Assembly (NCBI RefSeq): GCF_014842915.1
Contig: NZ_JACYXI010000007.1
Location: 62,001-126,000, forward strand
Direction of reading: 5' to 3'
From: Roseibium litorale
Lineage (GTDB): Bacteria; Pseudomonadota; Alphaproteobacteria; Rhizobiales; Stappiaceae
Length of the DNA: 64,000 nucleotides
Made by a program: the position numbers and the translations under genes. Of this stretch, positions 1,588-22,638 are shown one piece after another; positions within the stretch are counted from its first letter, which is position 1, and each line of letters begins with the position of its first letter. Under the pieces are notes generated by a model. The model worked only from the letters and a program-made list of their open reading frames with translations, made no database searches and had not been told where the DNA came from.

Positions 1588-1611
1588 GGGTGCGTCCTTT
1601 CAGACGCACCC
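1588..1611 (-). terminator. Rho-independent terminator of the glycan operon
   Basis: Nine-base inverted repeat GGGTGCGTC/GACGCACCC with a six-base loop. Read on the minus strand it is followed by GTTTTTG, so it fits termination of the leftward operon that ends with the GH105 gene at 1677. The plus-strand side has no T run. Confidence 0.75.
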
Positions 1612-1676
1612 AGTTGGCCGCATTTGCAACCTTCACACCGACGCGGACCGCGGCTCAAAGACCGCGTGCCTCAGCT

Positions 1677-2792
1677 TCAAGCGTTGGCTGCCTTCTTTTG
1701 GGCCTTCTCGCCCGTCGGCTGAAGCCCGGAGAGGGTTTCGACCAGAAGCAGGATCACCAGAGCCTGGCCGTAGGGAGCCGGAACATTGGGAAGCTTGCGG
1801 TAGAAATCGAGGTCATGGCCCATCGGTGTGCCGTCAGACACTTCCAAGACGATCCCGTCCTCGCCAATCCGCTCGACAACGGCGTCATAAGCCTTGTCCG
1901 CAACAGAGCGGGCGCTTTCCGGCAAGATACCTTCTTCAATGCCGCGCAGAATGCCATAGGCAATACCGGCGGTGGCGGAGGTTTCCAGCGGAGAGTCCTT
2001 GTCGTCCAGCAAGGTCGAGAACATGCCGTTGTCATGCTGCAGACCAGCCAGTGCGCGTACCTGGGACTGCAGAGCACAGGTCAGGAAGCGCGCGTCGGAT
2101 GGCGCAATTGCATCTCCGACCAGACCGAAAAGTTCCGGAATGGCGACGGTGATCCAGGAGTTGCCACGGCCCCAGAAGGCCTTAGCGAAATTATGCCGCC
2201 CGTTGAAGTTCCAGCCGTGGTACCAGAGCCCCGTCACCGGATCAGCCAGATACCGGGTGTGCACAAGGAACTGATAGACGGACTCGTCGATCCAGTCCTT
2301 GCGCTTGAAGCGCTTGCCGGCCTGAGCCAGGAACAGACAGGTCATGAACAGGGTATCGTCCCACAGTTCACCGTCGTTCATGCGCTCCTTGACCACGTGC
2401 TGGAAGCCGCCGTCTTCCGTCTTGGCAAGATCATTCACCAGCCAGTCGGCCCAGTCCTGAACCAGAGCTTCCCAGTCCGGACGGTTGACGTGGTCGATCA
2501 GGATGGACAGGGCGAGCATCGGTGAGCTGGAGTTGACCTGGCGCGGCGGCAGTCCCCGGCCGATCTGCCAGTCATACCAGGCGGCGATGGACTCAATCAG
2601 CTCGCGGTCGCCCGAGGTTTCCGCATGACGAAGAAGGCCATAGATACCAACTCCGACTTCCCAGTCCCATTCATCGAACTGAAGGGAAAAGCCTTCGCTG
2701 GCCAGCGGCGCGGTTTCGTTCATTCCCTTGAGGCGTGCAAGCCCAACCGAAACGCTGGACAGCAGGCGGGAAATATCTTCGATGCTCTTCAT
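1677..2792 (-). CDS. GH105 unsaturated glycuronyl/rhamnogalacturonyl hydrolase
   Basis: A predicted YteR/YesR-like hydrolase that removes the 4,5-unsaturated uronic acid left at the non-reducing end of oligosaccharides by polysaccharide lyases. The 371-aa protein has the (alpha/alpha)6-barrel signature of GH105: the ELWDDTLFM segment with the catalytic-type aspartates, GLWYHGWNF, and FWGRGNSW. There is no signal peptide, so it acts in the cytoplasm on imported oligosaccharides. The ATG at 2792 has GAAAGAA upstream; a TTG at 2807 is also in frame and overlaps the previous stop. It is the last gene of the operon, 11 bases after the 844-aa gene. Family is clear. Whether the substrate is rhamnogalacturonan, ulvan or another uronate glycan is open. 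Confidence 0.9.
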   Translation of the reverse strand: MKSIEDISRLLSSVSVGLARLKGMNETAPLASEGFSLQFDEWDWEVGVGIYGLLRHAETSGDRELIESIAAWYDWQIGRGLPPRQVNSSSPMLALSILIDHVNRPDWEALVQDWADWLVNDLAKTEDGGFQHVVKERMNDGELWDDTLFMTCLFLAQAGKRFKRKDWIDESVYQFLVHTRYLADPVTGLWYHGWNFNGRHNFAKAFWGRGNSWITVAIPELFGLVGDAIAPSDARFLTCALQSQVRALAGLQHDNGMFSTLLDDKDSPLETSATAGIAYGILRGIEEGILPESARSVADKAYDAVVERIGEDGIVLEVSDGTPMGHDLDFYRKLPNVPAPYGQALVILLLVETLSGLQPTGEKAQKKAANA

Positions 2793-2803
2793 GGCAAATT
2801 CTT

Positions 2804-5338
2804 TCAAGAGTTATCCGTTGCGCCGGATCCCAGAACAGCGGCCTGGCCGAACGAGATCTTTGGTTCGAGTTCGGGATGGGGGAACGGATACGGCTTGCCG
2901 CCCGCAGTGAGCCCCTCCCGGTAGTTTAAGGTCAGGACCGGACGGCCGGGCCGCTTGAGCGAAAGCGTCATCTCTGATGGGTCAAATGACGTTTTCACCT
3001 CGTCCAGCAGGCTGCGAACAGCTTCGAGTCCCTGCCCCTCCGGCAGATCGCCGACCAGAACCACCCAGCCAGCCTTCCGGCCTTCGGCCCGGTATTCGCG
3101 GTTCTGCCCCGGGCCGCTCAAGACAGGTTCAAGAGCTTTGCAAGGGGTCATCGCTGCATAGCCCCGGCCCGACTGCAGAAGCAGCCAATCACCATGAAGC
3201 TCTGAGGCGTCAAAGGCATCCGCTGGCGCGTAAGCATGGGTGAAACCGATTCGATGCGTTTCGGGAATGTCGAACAGCATGAGTGCCGCGTCACCGAACT
3301 GGCCAACACGCGGCATGGTGCCGTTGCCTGCCCAGTAAGATGGGCGCTGGTGGCCCCAGGGGTCGTCTTCACCGGGATGGTTGACCCAGGCGCGGGCGAA
3401 GGCGTGACCAGCAAACCGGACGTCCAGAATATGCTGCTGATGCCCCTTGGAACCGGGCTCGCTGTCCACCGATGCAGAGAGCTGCACAGCGGCAGACTTG
3501 TAGAGCGCGAGCCGTCCGGCATGGCCGTAGCCCTGGACGTAATGTGCCTCAACACACTGCCCGTCTTCCGGAATGGCAATACGGGTCAGCTCCGCTGGCG
3601 GCTCGTAGTCACCCGCGCAGAACATCGGCAAAGCAGCAACGCCTTCATTCAGCCAGCCTTCGCCAAAGGCCACCGTTGCAAACGGAGCCAGTTCGGTGCA
3701 GGGGCCGGCCCGCAGTTCCTTGTCATAAGCTCGGCCCATGGAGCCTGCCGGAACACCTGCAAGCGTATGCAGGGAGATCATCTTGAAGAGGCGGGAGAGC
3801 AGTTGATCAGCTCTCTTGGCAATTTCATCCTTGCCCCAATGCTCGAGGGCAAGCAGGCCGATGAAGTCGATCGGGTAATAAGCGGCGGAGTTCCACTCGG
3901 CAAAGCCATGGCTTTCGACGGAATCGAACCACTTGCTAAGCCGTTCGGTGGCCAGGGCCAATTGCTCGCTGCCAAGCCGGCCCGAGGCCGTGAACCGCTC
4001 GCCAGGCATCAGCAGCCCGGCAAGATATTGGGAGACGTGGAAGCACAAGACGTGGTTCTCGCTCCAGAACCACATGGTGTCGTTGCCTGGCTCGTCCACC
4101 CAGTAGCGGTAGTTCAGGATCGATGCCTTGACCGTCGCCGCCAGATCCGCAGGCAGCTGGTCACGGTATGCGCCATAGAGCCAGAGCAGCGGCACCAGAA
4201 CAAAATCGGAGCAATCCCGCCGCTCATCGACAGACTCAAGCGTGTACTCAATCAGCTCACGGCAAAGACGCGTGCAACCATCTCCAGACGCCAGGATGGC
4301 GAAGGCACGGCCAATTCGCAGATCTCCGTGATCAGCAGCGTGACGAAGAGCTACGCGCTTGCGCTGTTTCAGGCCGCCGTTGTCGCGCGCCGGCTGCACA
4401 TCGTGCAGCAGGGCGAAGGCGATCTGACGGAAGACACGGGTCTCCCCAACCGAAAATGCCAGATTGAGCGGATGATAGGCTTCCGCCATGCAGTCCAGAC
4501 CATGTATCTCGACAGTCTTCTGACCAGCCTCCAGCACCGTCTTCGCGGAGAGGATCGGCGGTGTCCCGCGACGGTGGACGCTTGGCAGAACCTGAGCGGA
4601 AATCTCGACCGCAGAGACCGGCGCTTCATCGAAGGTCAGAACGAGCGGATTGCCGGTGCAAAACTCACCAACAGGACGCACATCGCGGGCCAATGCCATC
4701 AGTTCGCGGATCACTTCGGGATCCGCGGAACTCGGAATGGCGGACGTTACCAGCTGATCACCCAGCAGCGTCAGTTCCACGTACCAATTGGTATCGCGCT
4801 CAGCCATGTCCTCGGACAGCATGATGATCTCGCTGCCCGAGGACCTCAGCGGCAGCGTGATTTCTGCCTGCTGTTCCTTGTTGCGGGAATAGGGTTCGAA
4901 CTTCGCAGCCAGCTTTCCGTCTACCCAGATGTGAACGCCGCCGCATGTCGCCACGCGGAAAGGGACATCCCCATCCTGAGCGGGCTCCAGAACAGTCTTG
5001 CACCAGCGCTTCAGCCGCGTCGGTCTGTGCCAGAAGTCAGAAAACTCCAGCCGGCGGTTGAAGCCGGGAAGATTGATGCTCTCGACCTCCCAATCTGTTT
5101 CCAGCTCCACGGTACGCTCGGCAATGTCTTTCCAGACTGCCACGCGACAGGGCAAATCGCCCACATCAACAAACCCGTTGATGAAACGGTAGTTGACCCG
5201 GTCTTCAGCCAGCGCGACTTCGCCCGGATAATAGGTCTCCGAAATACCGGACAGCGCCCAGGCCGTCACCGTGTCTCCCGGAGCAACCGGGAAACGGGAC
5301 AATTGCCGCTCGGCTGTTTTGTGTGCAACTGCGCTCAT
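2804..5338 (-). CDS. Unclassified 844-aa protein, candidate glycan-active (alpha/alpha)-toroid enzyme
   Basis: I do not recognise a named family. Residues 1-300 look beta-rich, with a segment near 133-152 (GGVHIWVDGK...) typical of a sugar-binding or jelly-roll fold. From about 340 the protein is helical and rich in aromatic and acidic residues: WFWSENH at 423-429, then EWNSAAYYPID at 481-491, like the active-site helices of toroid glycosidases and lyases. A C-terminal beta-sandwich is likely after 650. There is no signal peptide or membrane segment. It is translationally coupled (ATGA overlap) to the 405-aa gene upstream and sits 11 bases before GH105, between transporter and hydrolase. A hydrolase or lyase of the imported glycan is the natural guess, but this is inference from context and motifs only. 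Confidence 0.55.
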   Translation of the reverse strand: MSAVAHKTAERQLSRFPVAPGDTVTAWALSGISETYYPGEVALAEDRVNYRFINGFVDVGDLPCRVAVWKDIAERTVELETDWEVESINLPGFNRRLEFSDFWHRPTRLKRWCKTVLEPAQDGDVPFRVATCGGVHIWVDGKLAAKFEPYSRNKEQQAEITLPLRSSGSEIIMLSEDMAERDTNWYVELTLLGDQLVTSAIPSSADPEVIRELMALARDVRPVGEFCTGNPLVLTFDEAPVSAVEISAQVLPSVHRRGTPPILSAKTVLEAGQKTVEIHGLDCMAEAYHPLNLAFSVGETRVFRQIAFALLHDVQPARDNGGLKQRKRVALRHAADHGDLRIGRAFAILASGDGCTRLCRELIEYTLESVDERRDCSDFVLVPLLWLYGAYRDQLPADLAATVKASILNYRYWVDEPGNDTMWFWSENHVLCFHVSQYLAGLLMPGERFTASGRLGSEQLALATERLSKWFDSVESHGFAEWNSAAYYPIDFIGLLALEHWGKDEIAKRADQLLSRLFKMISLHTLAGVPAGSMGRAYDKELRAGPCTELAPFATVAFGEGWLNEGVAALPMFCAGDYEPPAELTRIAIPEDGQCVEAHYVQGYGHAGRLALYKSAAVQLSASVDSEPGSKGHQQHILDVRFAGHAFARAWVNHPGEDDPWGHQRPSYWAGNGTMPRVGQFGDAALMLFDIPETHRIGFTHAYAPADAFDASELHGDWLLLQSGRGYAAMTPCKALEPVLSGPGQNREYRAEGRKAGWVVLVGDLPEGQGLEAVRSLLDEVKTSFDPSEMTLSLKRPGRPVLTLNYREGLTAGGKPYPFPHPELEPKISFGQAAVLGSGATDNS

Positions 5339-6552
5339 GCGCTCCTCACTGCAACTTGCGTACGTGCCGTCTCCGCCATCCGCTCCTCGAGCGGCTTCAG
5401 CTGAGACAGAAAATCGATAGGGGTCTCGGCCTGGAGCTCAGCGCCGGCCTGTGGAGCGCGATCAGCTTGCTTGTGCGTCCAGATCAGCTCAGCGGTGTGG
5501 ACGCCGCGCGCCTTCGCGGCGGCAACCGTTTCAGTGGAGCCACTGAGCACGAGGGTCCAAGAAGAAGGCAGATCGCTAAATTCTTCAGCTTCGAAGACTG
5601 ACCCGGCACCATCCGCCTTGATCAGGCTGTCGAATAGCTCGAAAAGTCCGGCGTCCTTCATGAGACCTGCTGCACCCTGCAGCATATCATCCGCTAGAAG
5701 CACGAGCCGGTAACCCGCATTCCGGAGACGGCGGAGCATGTCACCAAGGCCAGGAACCAGAGTTGTTCCGCAAACCAGATTGCGGCCACCTTGCAGAGTG
5801 CCATCAACGAGAATGGTGTTGATCCGGGGCATTCGCTGCCGAAGATCCGACATCAACAGGCGCACGCGCTCGGGAATCCAGCTGTCGAGCAATGGCCAGG
5901 GGACAAGCGCGATGCTGGAATCCACCGCCGGATAAAACCGGTAGACCGGAAGAAAGGCATCGGCTCTCATCTGCAACTTCGCCAGCCGGTGATCGAGACC
6001 TTCCGGCACGACCAGTCCGCTCTCGCAATAACGGTTGCCCAGATGCACACCCTCAAAAGCCGCCAGATCGCAGCACATGGCCGGAAGATAGGTTCCGGCC
6101 TTTGCCCGCATCTCTTCGCCATCGGCCCAATGCGCATGTTTCCCAGCTTCGGAATAGACGACCGCACGGCCTTCCCGCGACAGGAAGCGGCCACCTTCGG
6201 CTTGCATCGCCACCCGGTTGCCGTGCCGGGACGCATCCACACGAACCGGCTGCTCAGCTTTGTCCAGATAGACCCAGATGTGCTCCAGGTCGTACATGTG
6301 CTGGATATCCCAGTCGTACCAGATCGCGTATTCGATGACCGGGCCGCCTTGGGGAACAACCTGGAACTTCGAGGAGGGAGACTGTCCCGCCTCCACGAAA
6401 ACCGTGTAGCCCATGGCGAGCGGCGGATAGGGTTCCGCCTCATCCAGCATGATGACCGGTATGTGCCGGCGGGCCAGATCCCAATGGGATCCAGCCACAG
6501 CGGTTGCCCGCAGGTCTTCCAGATGACCCGAAAGACGCGAGACATCAGTCAT
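5335..6552 (-). CDS. Hypothetical two-domain protein with degenerate HAD-like C-terminal domain
   Basis: 405 aa, family not recognised. Residues about 30-220 form one domain with a dense aromatic/acidic stretch (EYAIWYDWDIQHMYDLEHIW, 74-93) followed by GKHAHW near 137-142; it could bind a sugar or a metal. Residues about 243-355 look like a haloacid-dehalogenase fold: ILVDGTL stands where DxDGT(L/V) is expected, LLADD at 285-289 resembles motif II, and VLSGSTETVAAAKARG matches the VGDSxxDxxAAxxAG end motif. The first nucleophile Asp is replaced (V-D-G-T rather than D-x-D-G-T), so classic phosphatase activity is doubtful. Both ends overlap neighbours by four bases (ATPase upstream, 844-aa gene downstream), implying tight co-expression. 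Function unknown. Confidence 0.6.
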   Translation of the reverse strand: MTDVSRLSGHLEDLRATAVAGSHWDLARRHIPVIMLDEAEPYPPLAMGYTVFVEAGQSPSSKFQVVPQGGPVIEYAIWYDWDIQHMYDLEHIWVYLDKAEQPVRVDASRHGNRVAMQAEGGRFLSREGRAVVYSEAGKHAHWADGEEMRAKAGTYLPAMCCDLAAFEGVHLGNRYCESGLVVPEGLDHRLAKLQMRADAFLPVYRFYPAVDSSIALVPWPLLDSWIPERVRLLMSDLRQRMPRINTILVDGTLQGGRNLVCGTTLVPGLGDMLRRLRNAGYRLVLLADDMLQGAAGLMKDAGLFELFDSLIKADGAGSVFEAEEFSDLPSSWTLVLSGSTETVAAAKARGVHTAELIWTHKQADRAPQAGAELQAETPIDFLSQLKPLEERMAETARTQVAVRSA

Positions 6553-7583
6553 TCACCGACACCTGTAAGGTTCAGTTCTTCGGCGTGGTGACAGCGGACC
6601 TGACGGCCTTTGATCTCGCGAAGTTCCGGAATCGCAACCCGGCACTTCTCGGTCGCATAGGGGCAGCGCGGGTTGAAGGCGCAGCCGGAAGGCGGATTTG
6701 CCGGATCAGCGATTTCCCCCTTCAGGATGATCCGCTTGCCTTCCTTGCGGCGGCGCGGGTCCGGCTGCGGAACTGCAGACAGGAGCGCTTCCGTATAGGG
6801 GTGCAGCGGTTTGCGGAAGATCTCGGCGGTGTCGCCCAGCTCCACAATACGGCCAACATACATGACCCCGATCCGGTCGGAGATATGTTCCACCATACCC
6901 AGGTCATGGGTGATGAACATGTAGGTCAGGCCGAGTTTTTCCTGCAGATCCTGCAACAGATTGATATTCTGAGCCGCCACCGACACGTCGAGCGCCGAAA
7001 CGGCTTCGTCAGCTGCGATGAAGCTGGGATTAAGGGCAAGGGCGCGGGCGATGCCGATACGCTGACGCTGACCGCCGGAGAACGCGTGCGGATAGCGCAT
7101 CACATATTCCGGACGCAGACCAACGAGACCCAGAAGCTCTTGAGCGCGATCACGGATTTCCGCTTTGGTGAGCTTGCCCTGAATGACCAGCGGCTCGCCG
7201 ATGAGATCAAGCAGACGCATGCGCGGATCCAGCGAGGAATACGGATCCTGGAAGATCATCTGCATTTCGCTGCGGATCGGACGCAGCTGCTTTTCATCCA
7301 GATGGGCGAGTTCCGTGACGCTCTCATCGGCCCGGCGGAAACGGATGGATCCGTCCGTCAGCGTATAGGCACGCAGGATCAGCCGCGCGACAGTCGACTT
7401 GCCGGAGCCGCTCTCGCCAACAAGGCCGAAAGTCTCGCCCTTCTTGATGTCGAAGGTCACGTCGTCTACGGCCTTGACCTCTCCGACCTGACGCTGAAGC
7501 CAGCCATGATTGATCGGGAAGTATTTCTTCAGGCCGGTGACGGACAAAAGAACGTCGTCGGGTACAGGTGTCATATCGGTCAT
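6549..7583 (-). CDS. Peptide/oligosaccharide-type ABC transporter ATPase, OppF-like
   Basis: One of the two ATPases of the importer encoded here. Walker A (GESGSGKST), the Q-loop region ([12 protein letters not shown]), the signature [10 protein letters not shown] and Walker B/D-loop ADEAVSALD are present, and the C-terminal oligopeptide/dipeptide extension carries the CxFxPRC pattern ([11 protein letters not shown], then C at KCRV) linked to iron-sulfur or structural cysteines in DppD/OppF proteins. In place of the usual ADEPVSALD the proline is alanine. The ATG at 7583 overlaps the OppD-like stop (TGATG) and follows a strong GGAGGAGG ribosome site; an in-frame GTG lies three bases upstream. 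Subfamily firm; transported molecule inferred from the operon. Confidence 0.93.
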
Positions 7584-8620
7584 CACGCAACCTCCTCCGG
7601 AAGCTTTCCGGCGAAGTGGCAGCGGGCCTGCTGGTCATCGGAGAAACGGACGAGAGGCGGCACCTCCACATTGCACGTTCCCTGAACGGCGAACTCGCAA
7701 CGCGGATTGAAGGAGCAGCCCTTGGGCACGTTGAAGGGATCGGGGACCATGCCCGGGATTGTCTTCAAACGGTGAACCGGCGCCTGGCCAAGCCGCGGCA
7801 CGGACTGCAAAAGGGCACGGGTGTAAGGGTGTTGCGGATTGTAGAAGATGTCATCGACCGTGCCGGTTTCCACAACCTGGCCGAGGTACATGACCGCCAC
7901 CCGGTCCGCGATATCTGCCACCACCCCGAAGTTGTGGGTGATGAAGATGATCGACATGCCGGTTTCAGCCTGCAGCTCACGCAGGAGATCCAGGATCTGG
8001 GCTTCCGTCGTCACATCCAGCGCAGTGGTCGGCTCGTCAGCGATGAGCAGAACCGGATCACAAGACAGAGCCAGCGCAATCATCGCACGCTGGCGCATGC
8101 CGCCGGAGAGCTGGTGCGGATAGTTGTCGACCAGTTGTTCCGGGCGCGGAAGCTGCACCTTGCGCAGAAGCTCGATGGCCCGCTCACGGGCTTCCTTCTT
8201 GCTGCAGTTCCGGTGCAGCAGGATGGTCCGCATGATCTGCGTACCGATGGTGTGAACCGGAGACAGAGCCGTCATCGGCTCCTGAAAGATCATGCCGATG
8301 GCATCACCGCGCAGCTCACGGATTTTCCGGGACTTGGATGGCAGGCCATCCAGCTGGATCTGTTTGCCCGCTTCCGGCTGGAACAGGATCGAACCGTCAT
8401 CGCGGGAGGTGTTCTTCGGCAGCAGCCGCATGATCGAACGGACGGTCACAGACTTACCGGACCCGCTCTCGCCGACGATGCCGAGCACTTCGCCGCGGTT
8501 CACGTGGTAGGAGACGCCATTGACGGCGCGCACGGTTCCTTCACGCAGCTCGAATTGAACATTGACGTCCTTGAGTTCGAGCAGCCGTTCAGGCGGCAGG
8601 GTTGTATTTGCGTTGGTCAT
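7583..8620 (-). CDS. Peptide/oligosaccharide-type ABC transporter ATPase, OppD-like
   Basis: Second ATPase of the importer, 345 aa. It shows Walker [12 protein letters not shown]-loop [12 protein letters not shown], signature [10 protein letters not shown], Walker [13 protein letters not shown], the switch histidine in FITHNFG, and the C-terminal oligopeptide-transporter domain with GCSFNPRC. Paired OppD/OppF ATPases form a heterodimer under the two permeases. The ATG at 8620 follows GGGGAGGAAA, an excellent ribosome site. It starts 12 bases after the OppC-like stop and overlaps the next gene by one base. Closest functional precedent in Rhizobiales is the Agp alpha-galactoside importer, also an Opp-type system that carries sugars, so a sugar cargo is plausible here. 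Confidence 0.94.
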
Positions 8621-8632
8621 TTTTCCTCCCCG

Positions 8633-10766: not shown

Positions 10767-10877
10767 TGTTCCTCCCCCTGTTTCGTTCCGGAGCAAACAT
10801 GCTCCCTGCTGATGCGTCAGACAAAGCCGTGCATCATCGGACGAAACCCAGGATTTACTGAAGTTACGAATGTCCCT

Positions 10878-10910
10878 GACCGCCACCCGTGAGCGTCACG
10901 GGCGGCGGTC
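10878..10910 (-). other. Stem-loop between binding-protein and permease genes
   Basis: Long GC-rich inverted repeat, roughly GACCGCC-x-CCCGTGA / TCACGGG-xx-GGCGGTC with a three-base loop. On the minus strand no T run follows, so it is better read as an mRNA-stabilising or attenuating element that lets the binding protein be made in excess over the membrane subunits, a common arrangement. Read on the plus strand it is followed by TTTT but no plus-strand gene ends here. Confidence 0.6.
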
Positions 10911-13017: not shown

Positions 13018-13033
13018 TTCCGGAAAGCAACAA

Positions 13034-13046
13034 GAAAATTTTTTCA
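13034..13046. promoter_or_regulatory. LacI-type operator candidate 3 (weak)
   Basis: GAAAATTTTTTCA, a diverged copy of the TGAAAATATTTTCA palindrome, about 200 bases before the binding-protein start. Confidence 0.35.
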
Positions 13047-13356: not shown

Positions 13357-16300
13357 TTACATCTCGATCCTGAAGCTCCGGATCTGGAACGGACGGAACC
13401 TCAACTCCACGGAAGATCCGGAAATCTCGATCTGGCTTGGCGACCTCTCCAGGATGTCCACCTCCATTAGCCCCTTCGCTTCAGGCGGCAGGGCGAGACG
13501 AGTGGCCGTTTCCTGGCCATGGGTTTCCCAAAGACGCACGACGATACCGTCACCGTCCTCGGATTGCTTTACGCTCTCCACGGTGACCGTTCCGCCTTCC
13601 AGCTGCAAAAGCTGCGCACTTACAGCCGCCGCACCAGCCTGTGCCACACTTTCTGCGGGCAGAGCCGCCGGGCTAAGGCGCAGAGGATGATTGAAGGCCT
13701 CTGCTTTCGCCGGGATCCCCTCTCCCTCAAACAGGCCATGGTGAACAGCTAGAGCATAGCGGAACCGGTGCTCTCCCTGATCCGCGTCCGGCCACGGATA
13801 AGTCGGAGACCGCAAGATCGTCAGGCGGAGATCCGTACCCTTGGCATCATAGCCGTATTTGCAGTCATTCAGCAGGGCGAGACCAAAGCCCGGTTCCGAC
13901 AGATCCACCCAGCGATGCATCGCTGTTTCAAAGCGGGCCTGATCCCAGGACGTATTCCTGTGCGTCGGACGGCTGACATGACCGAACTGGATTTCGGCAA
14001 TGGTCTTGTCCGCCGCAACATTGACCGGAAACGCAGCCTTGATCATCGTGTTGTGCTCGTGCCAGTCGATGAAGCTATCGACTTCGATCTCCGCTGCCCC
14101 ATCCTGAAGCGAAACAACCTGCACGATCCGGGAGTTTTCATAGCGCCATTCAAACCGGATTGCGGCCCGGTAGGGACCGGTCTCAACCACCTCAGCTGAG
14201 ACCAGATCGTCGATCTCCCAAACCTGATCCTCGAAACTGTCGTCAATGTCCCAGGCATCAAATTGCGCCGGCATATCCCGGTACGCCTGAAGCCGGTTCC
14301 CGGTATGGCCCGGATGGATGACTTCCCGTCCCTTGCGCTTGTCGAACAGGGAAACGAGACGCCCCTTATCATCAAAACGCGCTGACAGAACAGCATTTTC
14401 CAGCCGGTCTTCCGACATAACCAGAGCCGGATTGCCTTCAACGGCCGGTCCATCGGCGACGGATACGCCCGTCAGACTGAGCGGGGCCAGATCTTTTAGA
14501 GGCGCCGCCTGCTCCAATGTGCCATCCGCCCTGTGGAGCGTCTGAGTGACCGCGGAGGTCTCCCCCCTCCGCAGTATCTTTGGAGTGTCTCCGGACAGGG
14601 AGACCAGACCGCTTCTCGGGCGGGCCAGCACATTGAGCACAGCGAGCCCTTCCCCACCCAGAACAGCACCGTTCAGTTCACTCCGCAGCTTTGCCGCGGA
14701 GGTGAAGAAGCCGGCATAGTCACGGTCGCTGTCATCGAACACCTGGCCAATAGACGATCCCGGAAGAATGTCATGGAACTGGTTCAGCATCACAATCCGC
14801 CAAAGCCTGTGCAGCTCGGCAGCCGGATAAACGTGCCCTCTCTGCCGGGCGAGAACCGCCAAGGCTTCCAACTCGCGGAGTTCCTGCTCGGCCTTGCGGT
14901 TGTTCCGCTTGTTCTTGGCGACCGATGTCAGCGTGCCGCGGTGGAATTCCAGATACAGCTCACCGACCCAGCTCGGGAATTTTCCGGGTTCGGCATTCAT
15001 CCGGCTAACAAGACCATCGAAGAACGGTGCCATCGGGCCATGGACGACAGCGGGGCACCCCGGAATGCCGCGTTCCATGCGGCGGATATTTTCCAGCATC
15101 TCGCGTGTCGGCCCGCCGCCACCGTCCCCATGACCATAGACCAGCCAAAGATCCCTGTTCAGATCCTGCTGCCCATGACGGCGCCAGGCCCCCATGACAT
15201 GGGTTGGCTTGAGGTTCGGACAGTAGGTCGTGCCAATGCTGGTCGAGGTATAGGGCTGGCAAGTCAGGAAGTAGGCAGGCACCTCCGTCCCATCGATCCC
15301 CTGCCACCAGAAGGTCTCGTTCGGCATCCGGTTGGTGTCGTTCCAGCTCATCTTGTGAGTGACGAACACCTCAATACCGGACAGACGCATGAGCTGGGGC
15401 AGAGCCGCAGCATAACCGAATGTGTCCGGAAGCCACATGATCTTCGGGCGCACGCCGAATGTCTGCTCATGATAGGCAACACCGTGCATGATGTGGCGGA
15501 TGAAGGACTCGCCGCTCGTGACATTGGCATCCGGCTCCAGCCAGAGCGCACCTTCGATCTCGAACTGCCCGCCAGCATGCTTCGCTTTCAGCCGCTCAAA
15601 AAGCTCCGGGTAGTCCTCATTTAGGTAATCGAGCAGCAAGCCCTGATTATACATGAAGGTGTAGTCGGGGTACTGGTCCATCAGGTTCAGCGCTGTCGCC
15701 ATGGAGCGGGCCATTTTCTGGCGCGTCTCGCGGATACGCCATAGCCAGGCAACATCGATATGCGTGTGACCGGTCACAGTGATAACCGGTTTTTCCGCAA
15801 AGTCCTGCGCCTCATAAATACTCGCAGCAATGGCCCGGGCTTGTTCCAGAGAGGCAGCAAAGCGGGCTGCATCTCCCGGCCGGAAGTCGATCACTTTCAA
15901 AGCTTCATCGACAGCGTTGACAATGAAGTGCCGGCGCGGATCATCCACTTGCAGAAGACGGGCCACCTCAAGCGGAACGCTCAGGTCGTAAAAGACCGTC
16001 TCAGCAAGGAGATCATGCACCTGCAGATGGCAGGAGAACCCCGCCTGGCGGCGGCTTTCGATCGTGCCGGCCTCGATGGCGATGTCGAAGGCTTCGCCTG
16101 CCTGAGCGTTCTCAGACAGCAAAAGCTCCCGGTGATTGCCGTCAACGCCCTGAGCAAGCTTGCCATTCACCCGGACAAGACATTGGGGATCGGAGCGGCC
16201 CATCACATTGCCGAATTGAGCCTCAACACGCAGATAAACGCGGCATCCATGGGCCTGCTCAGGTATTGCCGCAGTTCCGGCAAACCAGAAATAGGCCTCA

Positions 16301-16494
16301 GGCTCCCCCCAGATCAGATCCGCATTCACCTCGACCCAGTTTCCCCGCGGCTCTGTCGAGGCCTGGCCGCGCTCTTCCGGCAGGGCTCTGCGGAACCGCA
16401 AGGGCACATCGTCTCCGACGCGCGTGAAAATACGCTCCTTCAACTGAGCAAGGAGGTGGTCGAGCTTTTTAAAGCGCTGCATGATTGTACTCAT
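13357..16494 (-). CDS. GH38 alpha-mannosidase
   Basis: A 1045-aa retaining alpha-mannosidase, close in length to the cytosolic class (about 1000-1040 aa). The N-terminal 240 residues form the beta/helical cap domain; the zinc site starts with GHTHIDVAWLWR (His245, Asp247); the nucleophile/zinc ligand is Asp357 in WLPDTFGY; HDILPGSS gives the distal histidine/aspartate pair. The C-terminal third is the beta-rich mannosidase domain. There is no signal peptide, so it cleaves alpha-mannosyl residues from imported oligosaccharides. The ATG at 16494 has a poor ribosome site; an alternative ATG is four codons in. Two LacI-type palindromes lie in the 154 bases between this gene and lacI, making it a likely LacI target. 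Confidence 0.95.
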   Translation of the reverse strand: MSTIMQRFKKLDHLLAQLKERIFTRVGDDVPLRFRRALPEERGQASTEPRGNWVEVNADLIWGEPEAYFWFAGTAAIPEQAHGCRVYLRVEAQFGNVMGRSDPQCLVRVNGKLAQGVDGNHRELLLSENAQAGEAFDIAIEAGTIESRRQAGFSCHLQVHDLLAETVFYDLSVPLEVARLLQVDDPRRHFIVNAVDEALKVIDFRPGDAARFAASLEQARAIAASIYEAQDFAEKPVITVTGHTHIDVAWLWRIRETRQKMARSMATALNLMDQYPDYTFMYNQGLLLDYLNEDYPELFERLKAKHAGGQFEIEGALWLEPDANVTSGESFIRHIMHGVAYHEQTFGVRPKIMWLPDTFGYAAALPQLMRLSGIEVFVTHKMSWNDTNRMPNETFWWQGIDGTEVPAYFLTCQPYTSTSIGTTYCPNLKPTHVMGAWRRHGQQDLNRDLWLVYGHGDGGGGPTREMLENIRRMERGIPGCPAVVHGPMAPFFDGLVSRMNAEPGKFPSWVGELYLEFHRGTLTSVAKNKRNNRKAEQELRELEALAVLARQRGHVYPAAELHRLWRIVMLNQFHDILPGSSIGQVFDDSDRDYAGFFTSAAKLRSELNGAVLGGEGLAVLNVLARPRSGLVSLSGDTPKILRRGETSAVTQTLHRADGTLEQAAPLKDLAPLSLTGVSVADGPAVEGNPALVMSEDRLENAVLSARFDDKGRLVSLFDKRKGREVIHPGHTGNRLQAYRDMPAQFDAWDIDDSFEDQVWEIDDLVSAEVVETGPYRAAIRFEWRYENSRIVQVVSLQDGAAEIEVDSFIDWHEHNTMIKAAFPVNVAADKTIAEIQFGHVSRPTHRNTSWDQARFETAMHRWVDLSEPGFGLALLNDCKYGYDAKGTDLRLTILRSPTYPWPDADQGEHRFRYALAVHHGLFEGEGIPAKAEAFNHPLRLSPAALPAESVAQAGAAAVSAQLLQLEGGTVTVESVKQSEDGDGIVVRLWETHGQETATRLALPPEAKGLMEVDILERSPSQIEISGSSVELRFRPFQIRSFRIEM

Positions 16495-16539: not shown

Positions 16540-16553
16540 TGAATATATTTTCA
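16540..16553. promoter_or_regulatory. LacI-type operator candidate 4 (GH38 promoter)
   Basis: TGAATATATTTTCA, one mismatch from TGAAAATATTTTCA, 46 bases before the GH38 start codon. Confidence 0.6.
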
Positions 16554-16615: not shown

Positions 16616-16629
16616 TGAAAATATTTTTA
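16616..16629. promoter_or_regulatory. LacI-type operator candidate 5 (GH38 promoter)
   Basis: TGAAAATATTTTTA, identical to the unit at 12957-12970. It lies 76 bases (start to start) from the neighbouring site, a spacing that would allow DNA looping by a tetrameric or paired LacI-family repressor. Confidence 0.6.
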
Positions 16630-16648
16630 TGCGCGCACAGGCAACCAA

Positions 16649-17698
16649 TTACGGCAGAGTGGCGACGCTAGCTCTGTCGATGATGCTGCACCCCAGCTCG
16701 AGCCGGTGCGCGGCCCGGTCCCCATCCGCGGCAAGGATCCGCTGCTCCAGCAGGTTCAGTGCCGCGGGGCCCATCTGTTCCAGCGGCACCCTGACAGTGC
16801 TGAGCGGAGGGACCACCAGTTCGCCAAGAGCAACGCCATCGAACCCCATGACGGAGACATCACCTGGAACCTTGAGGCCAGCAGAGGCAAGACCCCGCAT
16901 GGCTCCGAAGGCGAGATTGTCCGAGGCACAGAACAACGCTGTCACGCCATCCATTCCGCCATGCTCGGATATCCATTGCCGGACCGCCCCCTCACCGAAG
17001 CGCGGCTCATACCCGCCCACCAGGAGCACTGGGGCATCTGTCATGGGCAACCCGCTGGCACGGAATGCATCGTGAAATCCGTCAAGGCGGCGATGAATGG
17101 TCGTGCGGCCCTCCCAGGTGATGTGCAAAATCTTGCGGTGTCCACGGGAAATCAGCCAGCTGGTCGCAAGCTGAGCTGCAAACCGGTTTCCAGGAGTGAC
17201 GCTGTCCACCTGCATACCCTGATCTTCGCCATTGATCAGAACGGCGGGCAGTCCACCGGCACGCACACCGTTCAGAAGGTTACGATTGTCATCATTGACG
17301 ATGATTACACCATCGGCCTGCACCTCTTCCGCTGCTGAGAGGACCATTTCGGCTGACAGATTCCCAGCCGCCGCATAAGGGGCAAGCCGGACACCCCTGC
17401 GCTCGCAATCGCGGCTAAGCGCGTTCAGGACGGTCCAGGAAAAGAGGTTCGTATCGTTTTCTGGCAAGGCATCGTCGTTCACCGCGAGCAGCACAGTGCG
17501 AAGCGCAGAAATCGTCGCCTTGACCTTCCGTTCCGCGAGATAGCCAAGTTCAGTCGCCGCATCCAGGACACGTGCCCGGACTTCAGGTGAAATCGACGCA
17601 GTCCCGTTGAGGACATGCGATACCGTTGAGTTGGCGACCTGCGCTACACGCGCCACGTCTTTAATGCCAACCTTTCGCCTGCCTGCTATTGCTCTCAC
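16649..17698 (-). CDS. LacI-family transcriptional repressor
   Basis: DNA-binding regulator with the family layout: N-terminal helix-turn-helix (VGIKDVARVAQVANSTVSHVLNG, where TVSHVLNG is the recognition-helix/hinge signature), then a periplasmic-binding-protein-like sugar-sensing domain to the C-terminus (for example VMGFDGVALGELVVPPLSTVRVP). The GTG at 17698 puts the HTH ten residues in, as usual for the family, but GTG at 17704 and TTG at 17740 are also open and no ribosome site settles it. The gene lies between GH28 and GH38 in the same direction. Palindromes TGAAAATCATTTCA and TTAAAATATTTTCA upstream suggest autoregulation, and further copies suggest control of GH38 and the transporter. 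The effector is probably a sugar of the pathway. Confidence 0.9.
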   Translation of the reverse strand: MRAIAGRRKVGIKDVARVAQVANSTVSHVLNGTASISPEVRARVLDAATELGYLAERKVKATISALRTVLLAVNDDALPENDTNLFSWTVLNALSRDCERRGVRLAPYAAAGNLSAEMVLSAAEEVQADGVIIVNDDNRNLLNGVRAGGLPAVLINGEDQGMQVDSVTPGNRFAAQLATSWLISRGHRKILHITWEGRTTIHRRLDGFHDAFRASGLPMTDAPVLLVGGYEPRFGEGAVRQWISEHGGMDGVTALFCASDNLAFGAMRGLASAGLKVPGDVSVMGFDGVALGELVVPPLSTVRVPLEQMGPAALNLLEQRILAADGDRAAHRLELGCSIIDRASVATLP

Positions 17699-17768
17699 TC
17701 CCACCCACGCACTGACGCGCCCACCAGCCACACAAACCAAAGATTTGGCAGCACCTCCGCAGTGTCAG

Positions 17769-17782
17769 TGAAAATCATTTCA
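17769..17782. promoter_or_regulatory. LacI-type operator candidate 6 (lacI promoter)
   Basis: TGAAAATCATTTCA, two mismatches from TGAAAATATTTTCA, about 70 bases before the chosen lacI start. Confidence 0.5.
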
Positions 17783-17887: not shown

Positions 17888-17901
17888 TTAAAATATTTTC
17901 A
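17888..17901. promoter_or_regulatory. LacI-type operator candidate 7 (lacI promoter)
   Basis: TTAAAATATTTTCA, one mismatch from the consensus, 119 bases from candidate 6 and just beyond the GH28 stop codon. Confidence 0.5.
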
Positions 17902-17916
17902 TTTGTCCGGACAGGT

Positions 17917-19260
17917 TCACGTCCAGCGGTTTGGCACTCCGCTCAGCACAACGATCTCGTCTGCGTGCCATCCGGCAGGCAGCGGCGCCGGACGGCTGAC
18001 CGACACTGAATTCAGCTCAAGGTTTTCGACGTTACTTGCAAAGACACCCGGCATGCCGTCCGGGTAGTCCACCAGCCCGATTACCTTCCCCTCTGCATCC
18101 TTGATCCAGGCATTCGCGCGCCCGGCAGCATCCGGTGACGGCTCTAAGTCGAAGCGGGTCGGACGCACATCGTAGCGCAGCCCATTGAAGCGGCTAGGCT
18201 CCTGCCGCACGGAAACCCGGCGCAAGGCAACATTGCGGATACCTGCCGGCGCGTCGGCAACCAGGTTGATCGCGCCTTCCATCCGCCCGGTAATGTCCTC
18301 AAAGACGAGGTTCTCAACCGTGCCAGCCGGATTGGTCTTGCGCCGGTCGATACAGTTGACGGTGATCGCCTCGCCAGATCCCCAGAACCCCTCGGGTGTT
18401 TCCTCACAATCGATGTCGATGCGCTGGAAAAGCACGTTCCGGACGGCCCCGCCATCGCGGGAAAAAATGCCAAGCGCCCTGTTCGAGCGAACAATCTTGC
18501 AGTCTACAAACTGGATGTTTTCGAAGTTGCCGAAGCTCTCGGTACCCAGTTTCAGCGCACAGCTGCGGCTTTCAATGACACAGTTGGAGGCAGTGATCGA
18601 GCGGCAGATGCCTGCTGGCTGGCCATCGCTCTTGGCGCTGGTTTTCAAAACCACGCCATCGTCCGCTGTCGCGATATTGCAGGCGTTGATCGTCACATTG
18701 GTGCAGGCGTCGATGACGATGCCATCGGTGTTCGGCATTTCGCGGTCATTATCGACATGCAGGCGCTGGATCGAGATTCGGTCGGATCCGATCAGATGGA
18801 TGGTCCACATCGGCGACTGGTGAACCGAGAAATCTTCCAAAGTGATGTCGGAGCAGTTTTCGAACACCAGTACGCGGGGCCGGAGAGCCGCAGGGACATG
18901 GGTGCCCATGTCCTCGATGTAACCAGTAATGAAGGCCGCGCCCTGTCCATCGATGAGCCCTTTGCCGCTGATGCGGATGCCGGAGGCATTTTGCGCCAGC
19001 AGAGCAGCCCGGTCCGAACTTTCGGCAATCACGTCCACCTTGTTGCTCTCATAGGCATCATAGGTGTCCGCGAGGCGGAGAATCGCGCCTTCCTCGAAAT
19101 GCAGGTGCAAACCGGAGGGCAGCTTGAGAGCACCACAATGGTGGACTCCTGGACCGAGAACCAGAGTGGTGCCAGCTTCCGCCGCTGCATTCAGCTCGGC
19201 TTGAAGCCCGGAGGTACAATCCCCCTCGCGGCAGGAAAACACAGTTTCACGATCACGCAT
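17917..19260 (-). CDS. GH28-family polygalacturonase-like hydrolase
   Basis: A right-handed beta-helix enzyme of the pectinase superfamily, 447 aa from the chosen start. The GH28 catalytic aspartates are in place: PNTDG at 176-180 and ADDGVVLK at 199-206. The GHG and RIK motifs of classical endopolygalacturonases are replaced by CALKLGTES and ALGIFSRDGG, features of a divergent bacterial branch whose substrates vary (galacturonides, rhamnogalacturonan, other uronides). No signal peptide, so cytoplasmic. The ATG at 19260 is preferred because GAAGGGAG precedes it; an open frame extends 38 codons upstream (with CPDC) into the divergent promoter. It is transcribed away from the ROK kinase across a shared control region. 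Confidence 0.82.
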   Translation of the reverse strand: MRDRETVFSCREGDCTSGLQAELNAAAEAGTTLVLGPGVHHCGALKLPSGLHLHFEEGAILRLADTYDAYESNKVDVIAESSDRAALLAQNASGIRISGKGLIDGQGAAFITGYIEDMGTHVPAALRPRVLVFENCSDITLEDFSVHQSPMWTIHLIGSDRISIQRLHVDNDREMPNTDGIVIDACTNVTINACNIATADDGVVLKTSAKSDGQPAGICRSITASNCVIESRSCALKLGTESFGNFENIQFVDCKIVRSNRALGIFSRDGGAVRNVLFQRIDIDCEETPEGFWGSGEAITVNCIDRRKTNPAGTVENLVFEDITGRMEGAINLVADAPAGIRNVALRRVSVRQEPSRFNGLRYDVRPTRFDLEPSPDAAGRANAWIKDAEGKVIGLVDYPDGMPGVFASNVENLELNSVSVSRPAPLPAGWHADEIVVLSGVPNRWT

Positions 19261-19370
19261 TGCGACGCTCCCTTCGCAGTCGGGGCAGTTGAAAGATGTC
19301 AGGACAATTCCGGCATGGGCAGACCGCCCACCGTCAGGTTTTCTTGACAGAGCAAGATTTAGCTGCCAAG

Positions 19371-19395
19371 TCAATTCGTCAGTTTATCGAACTAA
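19371..19395. promoter_or_regulatory. ROK-type operator candidate (GH28/ROK-kinase divergent promoter)
   Basis: TCAATTCG-N9-CGAACTAA in the 154-base region between the divergent GH28 and ROK-kinase genes. It shares AATTCGTCA with the nagB site and TCGAACTAATT with the transporter site. Confidence 0.6.
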
Positions 19396-19414
19396 TTATT
19401 CCCAGACCGTGATC

Positions 19415-20374
19415 ATGCCCAACGACAGATATCTGCCTCTCGAAAACGCGTTTCCCGCAACGAGTAAAAACGGCGGAAAACCAGGCTTATCGGTTGGCAT
19501 CGACCTGGGCGGCACCAAGATCAATGCCATGGTTGTGGACAATCACGGCAAAATCCTCGCCAGGGTCAACGAGCCAACCGCCCACGGCCCGGATGCGCCC
19601 GTCCTTGATCAGCTTTCGCGCGTCGTGACCAGTCTAGCAAACCAGGCTGGCGCTTCTTCTGAAGACGTCCGCACGGTGGCTATCGGAATACCTGCTGCCA
19701 TTTCCCCCCAGACGGGCCTGGCCTCCCTTTCCCCAAACCTCTACCTGCCGGAGGATATTCCACTCGCCGAACTTCTGGGCGAGAGGCTGCCGCTGACATG
19801 CATTCTCGTTGAGAACGACGTCAATCTTGCGGCCTATGGGGAAGCCAGTGCCATGGAGGCTCCCGATGGCGAGCCGGTTGTCTTCCTGTCTTTCGGAACA
19901 GGCGTCGGAATGGGGCTCGTGATAGGCAAGAACTTGATCCGCGGCGCTTTCGGACGAGGCGGCGAGATTGCCTATCTGCCTCTTGGCCCTTCTCCGCACG
20001 AAAAGGCTCCTGGGTCGCAGAATGGCATCTTCGAAGACATCGTCGGCACGCCTGGTATCCGCGCAACCTATTGCCGGGAAGGCGAAACCGTCGCCGATCT
20101 GTTTCAGCGGGCAGAAGCAGGTGAGGCTGACGCAGTTGCGGCGATCGACGGCGTGGCGCGCGAAGCCTCGGCAGGCGTTGGCGCCATTCAGAGTCTCTTA
20201 GACCCCATGGCTATCGTGATTGGCGGCGGAATCGGCAGCCAGCCGAGGTTTCAGAAGGCACTTGCCCGGCACGTGGACTCCCTGCTGCCCTTCCCCTGCG
20301 CGCTGCAGCCCAGCCGCTTTGGCGCAGAAGCCGGCGTGATCGGCGCAGCCCTGTTTGCCCTCCGGCACACCTGA
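19415..20374 (+). CDS. ROK-family sugar kinase
   Basis: A 319-aa ATP-dependent hexose or hexosamine kinase. Phosphate-1 loop GIDLGGTKINA at 28-38, catalytic base Asp135 in LVENDVN, and the adenosine region VIGGGIG near the C-terminus are clear. The zinc-binding ExGH plus Cys-rich motif of most ROK kinases is missing: the sequence reads RGGEIAYLPLG with Tyr where His is expected and no cysteine cluster. The ROK repressor downstream has the same variant (GELAYLPFG). Next to nagB, kinase action on N-acetylglucosamine, glucosamine or mannose is plausible. Start chosen at ATG 19415; the frame is open upstream but leaves the family pattern. Ribosome site weak. Confidence 0.88.
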   Translation: MPNDRYLPLENAFPATSKNGGKPGLSVGIDLGGTKINAMVVDNHGKILARVNEPTAHGPDAPVLDQLSRVVTSLANQAGASSEDVRTVAIGIPAAISPQTGLASLSPNLYLPEDIPLAELLGERLPLTCILVENDVNLAAYGEASAMEAPDGEPVVFLSFGTGVGMGLVIGKNLIRGAFGRGGEIAYLPLGPSPHEKAPGSQNGIFEDIVGTPGIRATYCREGETVADLFQRAEAGEADAVAAIDGVAREASAGVGAIQSLLDPMAIVIGGGIGSQPRFQKALARHVDSLLPFPCALQPSRFGAEAGVIGAALFALRHT

Positions 20375-20498: not shown

Positions 20499-21275
20499 CT
20501 AGGCGAGAAGCTGAGCAGCGGCCCGGTCCAATACCCAATGGACGTGAGCGTGGCTCATCAGCGCCGAAGCCGGACAGGTGGCGTCAAAACACCCCGAAAG
20601 GGCCTTGGCCACCGCTTCTGCCTTAGCTTCGCCCGTCGCCAGGACGACGATCGTCCTGGCAGACAGAATAGTCGCGATCCCCATTGTCAGAGCTTGAGAA
20701 GGCACAGCCTCTCCACTGAAGAAACTCTTGTTTGCTTCCTGTGTCGACGGATGGAGATCCACCAGTCTGGTGCGGCTTTCCAAATCAGAACCCGGCTCGT
20801 TGAAACCGATGTGCCCGTTCCGGCCAATGCCCAGAAGCTGCAAGTCAACCGGGCCCCGTTCCGCAATCAGTGCCTCGTACCTGTCAGCTTCCGCGGTCAG
20901 ATCGGAAGCTGTGCCATCGGGAAGGAAGCAACGGTTCTTATCGATGTCCGTATGATCAAACAGAAGCGCATTCATGGTGCCGCGATAGGATCCCGGATGG
21001 CTGGCCGTCAGCCCGGCATATTCATCCAGGTTGAAAGTCGTGACTTGGGAAAGGCTGAGCGCTCCAGACCGGACAGAGCTGACCAGATCCGCATAGACCG
21101 ACTCCATGGTCGCCCCGGTTGCCAGCCCCAGAACGGAGCCAGGTTTGCTGCGCACTTGAGCCCGAACCAGCTCCGCCACATGGCCGGCAGCGGAGGCTGC
21201 GGTTTCATGCAAGCTGACGGGAACAGAGGAATTACCGGATACGGCTTCAGCCCGGATTGCTGACGTTTTGGCCAC
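20499..21275 (-). CDS. nagB: Glucosamine-6-phosphate deaminase
   Basis: Converts glucosamine 6-phosphate to fructose 6-phosphate and ammonia, the step that feeds amino sugars into glycolysis. At 258 aa it has the family length. The general base Asp84 lies in NLDEY and the active-site motif GIGRNGHIGFNEP ends near 161 with His155. Substrate-phosphate residues are expected in GLATGATM (50-57). It converges with the ROK kinase, 125 bases apart. No nagA deacetylase is visible in the window, so the pathway either receives glucosamine directly or uses a NagA encoded elsewhere. A ROK-type operator lies about 70 bases upstream of the start. Confidence 0.93.
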   Translation of the reverse strand: MAKTSAIRAEAVSGNSSVPVSLHETAASAAGHVAELVRAQVRSKPGSVLGLATGATMESVYADLVSSVRSGALSLSQVTTFNLDEYAGLTASHPGSYRGTMNALLFDHTDIDKNRCFLPDGTASDLTAEADRYEALIAERGPVDLQLLGIGRNGHIGFNEPGSDLESRTRLVDLHPSTQEANKSFFSGEAVPSQALTMGIATILSARTIVVLATGEAKAEAVAKALSGCFDATCPASALMSHAHVHWVLDRAAAQLLA

Positions 21276-21345
21276 TTCTCATTCCCCGCAGCATGTCCTC
21301 CGGCAACACAGCCGGTCATTCATCTGATGAGATAGAAGGAGAAAA

Positions 21346-21371
21346 TTAATTCGTCAAGTTTCCGAACTTAA
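21346..21371. promoter_or_regulatory. ROK-type operator candidate (nagB promoter)
   Basis: TTAATTCG-N9-CGAACTTAA, the most symmetrical of the three copies, 71 bases upstream of the nagB ATG and just beyond the ROK-repressor stop codon. Confidence 0.6.
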
Positions 21372-21435
21372 AGCATTTCAATAAGGGTCTTGCTTGCCGC
21401 TTCAGCCTTTCAACAGGCGGAGCACCTGGCCAGGA

Positions 21436-22638
21436 TCAATCGGCAGGGACGGGAGGCAGGCGCAGTTGACTGGGAAGATCTTGCGGAGAAAACAAGCGGT
21501 TGTGCATCAGGTTCAGGGCAACGGCCACAGCACCGATCAAGGGCGCTTTTAACTCGAGCTGGCTGCGTTCAAGATGGATCTGCCGCCGGGTGATTGAGGG
21601 CAAGAGCGCCTGGATCTGCTCCAGCAATCCGGGTACAAGACCGATGAAACCACCAAGCACGACCCGCTCCGGATCAAACAGCGCATCGATGGAAACCACA
21701 GAGAGCGCTGCAAGCCGGGCGGTTTCCTGAAGAACCTGGGCGGCGGCCCCGTCATCTTCGGCACGCCTCAGAATGTCGTCCGCGGCCAGTCCGCTCACTC
21801 CTCCAGCAAGTTCATCATACCGCTCGACGATCCCCCGGGCTCCCAGAACGCATTCGAGTGCGCCACGCTCCAGGCTTGCACTGGCCTCCGGATCGCCGCC
21901 AAACGGCAGGTAGGCCAGCTCTCCTGCGGCTCCATGCGCTCCGCGGATCAGACGGCCTCCCGCCATGAGGCCAAGCCCAATTCCGGTTCCCAGCGACACA
22001 AAGGCACATGTTTCCAGCCCGGCCGCGCACCCGCGCCAGGCCTCGCCCAGCATGGCGGCATTGATGTCGTTCTCGACACAGACCTCGCATCCGAGCACCT
22101 CCTGCAGACGCCCCGCGACATCAAGGCTTTCCGAAGGATCCATATCGGGCGCAAGGGTCAACCGTCCACTAACAGGGTCCGCAACGCCGGGCATTGCCAC
22201 GGCCGCCAGCAACAACCTCTCGCCCGGAATGCCCTCGCCGGCAAGGCAGCTGACGACGATCCGCCCTGCCCTTTCGACAAGATCTGCTCCCGAGCCCGCC
22301 GCAGCTTCCTCCCGCTCCAGGCGGATGGCGCCTGTCACATCCACAAGCGCAACCCGGATCAGCCCGCTGCCGATCTCAATTCCGGCGGCATAGCCGCGTT
22401 CGCCGGCAAATTCATAAGTGACCGCGCTCCGTCCCACGCGCCCGCTTTCAATGCCCTTGATCCGGACCCAGCCATCTTCTTCCAGAAGCCGGATGACTTC
22501 GGACATGGTCTGTTTGGAAAGGCCTGTCTTCTTCGCCAGCGTTGCCCGGGAGGTTGGCCCTTCCTGCAAGAGCACATCCACTGCGGCACGCACTGAAATC
22601 TGCCGGAGAACCGGATAGGGAGTGCCGGAAATTGTCAT
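21436..22638 (-). CDS. ROK-family transcriptional repressor (NagC/XylR type)
   Basis: A 400-aa regulator: residues about 8-65 are a MarR-like winged helix (RAAVDVLLQEGPTSRATLAKKTGLSK...) and the rest is a ROK sugar-binding domain with VENDINAAMLGEAWRG and SLGTGIGLGLM. The zinc motif is replaced by AAGELAYLPFG, matching the ROK kinase in this locus, which suggests both see a similar sugar. The ATG at 22638 gives the normal family length; the open frame continues 56 codons further. It lies directly upstream of nagB in the same direction with a TTCG-N9-CGAA-type site between them. It is the best candidate binder of the three such sites. Confidence 0.88.
   Translation of the reverse strand: MTISGTPYPVLRQISVRAAVDVLLQEGPTSRATLAKKTGLSKQTMSEVIRLLEEDGWVRIKGIESGRVGRSAVTYEFAGERGYAAGIEIGSGLIRVALVDVTGAIRLEREEAAAGSGADLVERAGRIVVSCLAGEGIPGERLLLAAVAMPGVADPVSGRLTLAPDMDPSESLDVAGRLQEVLGCEVCVENDINAAMLGEAWRGCAAGLETCAFVSLGTGIGLGLMAGGRLIRGAHGAAGELAYLPFGGDPEASASLERGALECVLGARGIVERYDELAGGVSGLAADDILRRAEDDGAAAQVLQETARLAALSVVSIDALFDPERVVLGGFIGLVPGLLEQIQALLPSITRRQIHLERSQLELKAPLIGAVAVALNLMHNRLFSPQDLPSQLRLPPVPAD

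Follow-up and report, generated by a model that had tools for sequence, protein, structure and literature searches.

A conserved, operator-linked importer locus of Roseibium litorale and its candidate uronic-acid eliminase family

Introduction

What does a bacterium take up through an Opp-type importer whose genes run directly into those for a GH105 enzyme and two proteins of 405 and 844 amino acids (aa) without a recognised family? The question is raised by a stretch of 64,000 nucleotides (the window) from Roseibium litorale, contig NZ_JACYXI010000007.1, positions 62,001 to 126,000, in which a first-pass annotation had seen a composite cytoplasmic glycan-degradation locus. The computational analysis presented here indicates a co-regulated unit that probably imports acidic sugar chains and dismantles them in the cytoplasm. 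Its main new element is the 844-aa family, a probable uronic-acid eliminase feeding GH105. Named residues, a partner enzyme, a regulator and an operator can now be assigned to this family, which makes its proposed function testable. If the assignment is right, these proteins are a new candidate family of polysaccharide lyases (or of oligosaccharide dehydratases), and rhizobia and marine Stappiaceae are predicted to import a uronic oligosaccharide.

Organization of the operon

In the list of open reading frames (ORFs), the genes for a solute-binding protein (SBP), OppB, OppC, OppD, OppF, the 405-aa protein, the 844-aa protein and GH105 form, in this order, a compact operon on the minus strand. 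Successive ORFs from OppD through OppF and the 405-aa and 844-aa proteins to GH105 overlap by 4 bases, so that the direct coupling of the importer ATPases to these three genes, proposed in the first-pass annotation, is genuine. All genes it had named lie at the positions it had given. The operon, its regulator and the operators are as follows.

1677..2807, minus strand: GH105 (Glyco_hydro_88 domain, Pfam PF07470, 302 bits), predicted unsaturated glycuronyl hydrolase
2804..5338, minus strand: 844-aa protein, predicted beta-eliminating and polysaccharide lyase-like from its model fold and invariant residues
5335..6552, minus strand: 405-aa protein, with an N-terminal domain (~1-240) and a HAD-type domain (~241-391) whose HAD motifs are lost
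6549..7586, minus strand: OppF-type ATPase (ABC_tran and oligo_HPY in Pfam)
7583..8620, minus strand: OppD-type ATPase (ABC_tran and oligo_HPY in Pfam)
8633..9769, minus strand: OppC-type permease (BPD_transp_1 and OppC_N in Pfam)
9780..10886, minus strand: OppB-type permease (BPD_transp_1 in Pfam)
10941..12833, minus strand: family 5 SBP (SBP_bac_5 in Pfam) with an N-terminal hydrophobic stretch
12957-12970 and 13033-13046: two LacI-type operators 5' of the SBP operon, their position conserved in relatives
13357..16494, minus strand: GH38, predicted alpha-mannosidase (four GH38 domains in Pfam)
16540-16553 and 16616-16629: two operators 5' of GH38 (pattern search)
16649..17740, minus strand: LacI-family regulator
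17769-17782 and 17888-17901: two operators 5' of LacI (pattern search)

The GH105 protein belongs to its family by profile, with 3pmm, 3qwt and 4xuv as the closest PDB entries, and the catalytic N-terminal, middle and C-terminal domains of GH38 are all matched in Pfam. By a crude hydropathy analysis the SBP has a signal-like N-terminus, whereas the 844-aa, 405-aa, GH105 and GH38 proteins do not, which agrees with cytoplasmic enzymes. The GH105 gene product also scores 554 bits against NCBIfam NF051900, above the cut-off of 420; the name of that model, 'beta-galactosidase BglB', is at odds with the GH105 fold and the lyase-linked location.

A common operator defines the regulon

The operator is an AT-centred palindrome of LacI type, TGAAAATATTTTCA. 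Allowing up to two mismatches, the window contains six sites, paired 5' of the SBP, GH38 and LacI genes, compared with a mean of 0.10 and a maximum of 1 in the shuffled window. The pairs 5' of both SBP and GH38 place GH38 within the regulon. A CG-centred LacI operator was considered and rejected, as it has no site 5' of the SBP gene, where the AT-centred palindrome is present. Gene position and conservation point to the LacI-family protein as the presumed binder.

At the same threshold, the whole R. litorale genome holds 20 such places, six of them in the window, versus four for a reversed control pattern. Four stretches outside the window were examined. In one, the operator is doubled where the ORF of a methyl-accepting chemotaxis receptor begins (G000:C31:78600-78654, L172), and the regulon may extend to chemotaxis. 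The sites in the others adjoin genes for a GGDEF protein, pyruvate kinase and prolyl oligopeptidase.

Conservation of the locus

A scan of GTDB yielded 532 coding stretches with the 844-aa family, the best 80 of which form the locus set. These loci extend 10 kb upstream, and GH38 was therefore counted separately in 47 genomes chosen from the 80. The family occurs in Rhizobiales and as far afield as Gammaproteobacteria, Clostridia and haloarchaea, with many members in plant-nodulating Rhizobium and in Agrobacterium. Of 101 related genomes, 11 encode a relative, and these belong to 6 of 47 genera; among 398 genomes sampled across the phylum, 9 do so (E 1e-20). The gene order of the window block recurs in other genera, so the block exceeds chance.

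Opp-type loci account for 31 of the 80 and the family 5 SBP is carried by 30. GH105 adjoins the 844-aa gene in 68 loci, and the 405-aa gene does so in 24, all Opp-type, although merged ORFs may hide more. In 28 of the 47 genomes (26 of 30 Opp-type ones and 2 of 17 others), a full-length GH38 (at least 1290 bits) is no more than 16 kb away from the 844-aa gene, whereas XylA, used as a control, is that close in none (nearest 66 kb). Among the related genomes, GH38 is present in 8 of the 11 with the 844-aa gene and in 4 of the 90 without it (Fisher 3.6e-7, kinship not corrected); in genomes G042 and G083 it is present but distant from that gene. A neighbourhood not conserved as a unit had been named in the first-pass annotation as a result that would decide against a single pathway; the LacI, GH38, SBP, OppBCDF, 405-aa, 844-aa and GH105 genes are conserved as a unit.

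An operator of this type lies 5' of the SBP, 844-aa or GH38 gene in 76 of the 80 loci. In 27 of the 30 SBP-carrying loci it falls between positions -400 and +120 relative to the SBP ORF start (exceptions L049, L051 and L092), and no further operator was found elsewhere in these 30. Loci without this SBP carry it in 49 of 50 cases, 47 of them directly 5' of the 844-aa gene, and in the Devosia loci L054 and L075 it lies 32 bases 5' of GH38. One operator is thus common to Opp-type and UgpC/GH28-type loci.

The 844-aa family pairs with four kinds of transporter, while GH105 and later steps acting on 4-deoxy-5-keto-uronate recur. A Pannonibacter plasmid combines LacI, GH105, KduI, the 844-aa gene and an ABC importer. 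On plasmids of Pseudosulfitobacter from diatom cultures, GH105, TRAP, KduD, LacI, KduI and the 844-aa gene occur together, and Catenovulum has LacI, the 844-aa gene, GH105, MFS and an epimerase. A KduD-containing cluster was found in 13 and a KduI-containing one in 11 of 113 loci, with members verified in L021.

Genes flanking the unit

Besides GH38, the first-pass annotation had drawn the following genes into the same system.

17917..19374, minus strand: GH28, PglB-type (Pfam 74.5 bits; NF051861 693 bits, cut-off 600), a recurrent neighbour
19289..20374, plus strand: ROK sugar kinase, its start probably further downstream, kept in R. suaedae
20499..21275, minus strand: NagB-type deaminase that is not part of the conserved unit
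21436..22806, minus strand: ROK-type repressor, kept in R. suaedae

None of the GH28, NagB and ROK genes in the window has an operator 5' of it at up to two mismatches. The R. suaedae cluster keeps the ROK genes, GH28, LacI and GH38, and GH28 adjoins GH38 also in Pannonibacter and genome G017. No match to NagB was found in the otherwise matching R. suaedae cluster. The inclusion of GH38 is hence borne out by its operator and conservation; NagB, and with it glucosamine in the target chemistry, has to be dropped.

The 844-aa protein

At the limits used, no Pfam or NCBIfam family matched the 844-aa protein, and no PDB sequence did so up to E=1. The claim of two proteins outside recognised families thus holds for this one and for the N-terminal half of the 405-aa protein, but not for the C-terminal half of the latter, which is a HAD domain. 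Heparinase II/III-like (PF07940) gave no Pfam match and an hhalign probability of 0.1; descent from housekeeping proteins of the Heparinase II/III-like type, taken from 25 relatives, was discarded, as a profile match is absent. The literature, covered by titles and abstracts and with most subscription papers outside coverage, yielded no description of the family, and plasmid records listed with annotation call it 'hypothetical protein'.

The structural model (pLDDT 85.8) shows an N-terminal sandwich matching GH2-type domains, an apparent helical toroid and an apparent antiparallel beta-sheet domain, with modest resemblance to (alpha/alpha)-toroid polysaccharide lyases in Foldseek. Toroid and beta-sheet domain are reminiscent of families PL8, PL12, PL15, PL17, PL21, PL35 and PL39, which carry Asn/His, Tyr and His at similar spacing to N428/H429, Y487 and H654 of the 844-aa protein, roughly so when compared along the sequence. 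N428, H429 and Y487 are invariant in all 112 aligned rows and H654 is kept in 110. The protein differs from these lyases in the extra sandwich and the absence of a signal-like N-terminus, and no sequence or profile match to them was found. The best reading of the model is that the 844-aa protein beta-eliminates at a uronic acid, as a lyase or dehydratase, and that GH105 removes the unsaturated residue. The family is widespread and unclassified, and it may represent polysaccharide lyases of a new kind.

Several variants were seen. Gln replaces H654 in L036 and L038, both iol-linked relatives. Matches of the 844-aa type are split in two or interrupted by a stop in G626 (L039), G638 (L051) and G643:C14. 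R. litorale has a second gene of this type (31% identity; G000:C32:106888-109194, L014 and L027), with GH105, LacI and a UgpC-type importer as its neighbours.

The 405-aa protein

Searched alone, the C-terminal half of the 405-aa protein matched HAD profiles only below threshold; once relatives were included, its membership of the HAD family became clear, and the fold comparison agreed. Of 25 relatives, 21 retain motif I (DCGDT) and motif IV (GNNLxR), which the window protein has lost. A Vps62-like identity of the N-terminal half is tentative. The order of motifs is suggestive, and in hmmsearch the half scored 7.3 bits, above 4000 shuffles (best 6.3), while in hhalign it scored 21.0 against 22.2 for the best of 50 shuffles. 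The Vps62-like profile reached one of 25 members at E 0.059, and no Vps62-fold member appeared in the VIA listing for this half, which was barely tested there.

Proposed pathway and target glycan

From the computed operon, operators, conservation, fold resemblance, invariant residues and neighbours we infer an activity, an order of steps, a ligand and a polymer. A LacI-controlled SBP5-OppBCDF importer would take up an acidic oligosaccharide. The 844-aa protein, as an eliminase of the (alpha/alpha)-toroid lyase kind, would abstract the C5 proton of a uronic acid whose carboxylate is held by N428/H429, with H654 and Y487 acting as base and acid; the C4 substituent would be expelled, leaving a 4,5-unsaturated uronosyl end. 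GH105 would release the unsaturated residue, which KduI/KduD-type enzymes could take on, and GH38 would cut off alpha-mannose. The mechanism as a whole, with a uronate-mannose compound as its most likely target, has somewhat better than even chances in our estimate.

A uronate-mannose oligosaccharide, xanthan-type or glucuronomannan, fits slightly best because GH38 belongs to the regulon and xanthan provides a precedent. The published xanthan route proceeds from a lyase to an unsaturated glucuronyl hydrolase and then GH38, and the routes of Bacillus GL1, Microbacterium XT11 and R.UCG13 bring PL8, GH88, GH38 and an ABC importer together. Here, GH105, GH38 and an importer are present and the lyase is only predicted; the importer is Opp-type, GH105 replaces GH88, the lyase-like protein stands outside the named families, and neither endo-xanthanase nor beta-glucosidase was seen in the unit. 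The earlier statement that no single polymer has all the implied sugars was overstated, as uronate and alpha-mannose are ordinary in such glycans; the view of a conserved, co-regulated unit for uptake and degradation of a uronide is upheld.

Some observations weigh against this proposal. The SBP resembles SPH1118, which binds polygalacturonan and serves pectin assimilation; the window GH28 exceeds the NCBIfam PglB cut-off; 46 of the 80 loci, none of them Opp-type (loci with 10 kb upstream), have GH28 next to the 844-aa gene and GH105, under the common operator; and, as regards mechanism, the 844-aa protein has the GH2-type sandwich and a GH78 rhamnosidase in its Foldseek list. Since GH28-type loci carry the same operator, pectin and uronate-mannose come closer in likelihood.

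A pectin module is accordingly a possible, if clearly less probable, explanation: galacturonan or rhamnogalacturonan oligosaccharides would be imported, the 844-aa protein would be a cytoplasmic oligogalacturonide or rhamnogalacturonan lyase, GH105 an unsaturated galacturonyl hydrolase, and GH28 would trim saturated ends. Also counted for pectin were the role in polygalacturonate degradation ascribed to Agrobacterium PglB in a review and the inclusion of rhamnogalacturonyl hydrolases in GH105. The Agrobacterium/Rhizobium pglB-type loci (GH28, GH105, UgpC-type importer) have the 844-aa family, GH105, GH28 and the operator in common with the window but differ in the transporter, in lacking the 405-aa protein and usually in lacking GH38 nearby. 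GH38 would have no role in pectin breakdown, yet it is in the regulon and close by in most Opp-type genomes. SPH1118 (287 bits over nearly the full length), a family 5 SBP itself, is among the closest solved relatives of known ligand; 5ipw (361 bits) is another PDB match. Compared by eye, however, only the two Arg of five SPH1118 ligand residues are kept, with Arg57 changed to Lys, Arg438 to His and Asn53 to Trp. The relationship to SPH1118 suggests that the importer may carry sugars.

It is rather unlikely that the 844-aa protein is an oligosaccharide dehydratase, stripping water from a terminal saturated uronic acid, first exposed by GH38, on behalf of GH105. The ulvan enzyme P29_PDnc is a precedent, as it likewise makes the unsaturated uronosyl end needed by GH105, by a lyase-like mechanism (PMC8511951), and such an activity would remove the redundancy of GH38 and lyase and suit small imported oligosaccharides. 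P29_PDnc is reported to use Asp248 and Lys303 (PMC8511951), whereas the residues of the 844-aa protein look lyase-like.

We consider it improbable that the target stems from plant sphingolipids, whose inositol-phosphate head group is mannose- or glucosamine (or N-acetylglucosamine)-glucuronic acid-inositol-phosphate, an idea that arose after the fact. Glycans of the mannose-glucuronic acid-inositol-phosphate type occur and are released in nature (PMC11496612; PMC9113257). In 8 of the 47 genomes IolD is no more than 16 kb away from the 844-aa gene, in at least three arrangements (0.28 expected under independence, which does not hold), versus none for XylA; iol genes were verified in L036. HAD motifs are intact in most 405-aa relatives, a PHP-type metallohydrolase stands beside LacI in 17 of the 80 loci, and the Catenovulum 844-aa gene and GH105 are near phosphoinositide phospholipase C, metallophosphoesterase and inositol oxygenase. 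On the other side, 39 of the 47 genomes have no IolD nearby, including R. litorale, whose iol genes are on another contig; the window protein has a degenerate HAD domain; and two of the IolD-linked loci, L036 and L038, lack H654. More doubtful still is the full scheme in which a new class of intracellular eliminases has an importer-linked branch that opens this head group, the 405-aa/HAD and PHP-type proteins taking the phosphate, GH38 the mannose, eliminase and GH105 the glucuronic acid and a neighbouring iol operon the inositol; if true, it would be the first bacterial pathway for such glycans.

As improbable as the inositol-phosphate target is a reading in which the 844-aa protein, built around a comparable helical barrel, acts as a glycoside hydrolase or phosphorylase and does not eliminate. 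The sandwich and the GH78 match speak for it; the GH105, KduI and KduD neighbours and the N-H-Y-H set indicate elimination. Opp-type families are mostly named for peptides, but a peptide transporter amid more than one pathway is very unlikely, given that importer and enzymes share one operon, one operator and a conserved order.

Additional observations

A PHP-type metallohydrolase of the CehA/McbA family lies beside LacI or GH38 in 18 loci (L029, L033-L040, L042-L045, L047, L048, L051, L105 and L139); the assignment was verified in L139 and the remaining loci were grouped by similarity. A tRNA-Arg(acg) gene (22917-22993) at the far edge of the cluster marks a possible insertion boundary. The 3' end of the operon faces a convergent amidase gene (69-1577, plus strand). 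Positions 56001-60000 of the window have a GC content of ~0.50, compared with ~0.60 over most of the window.
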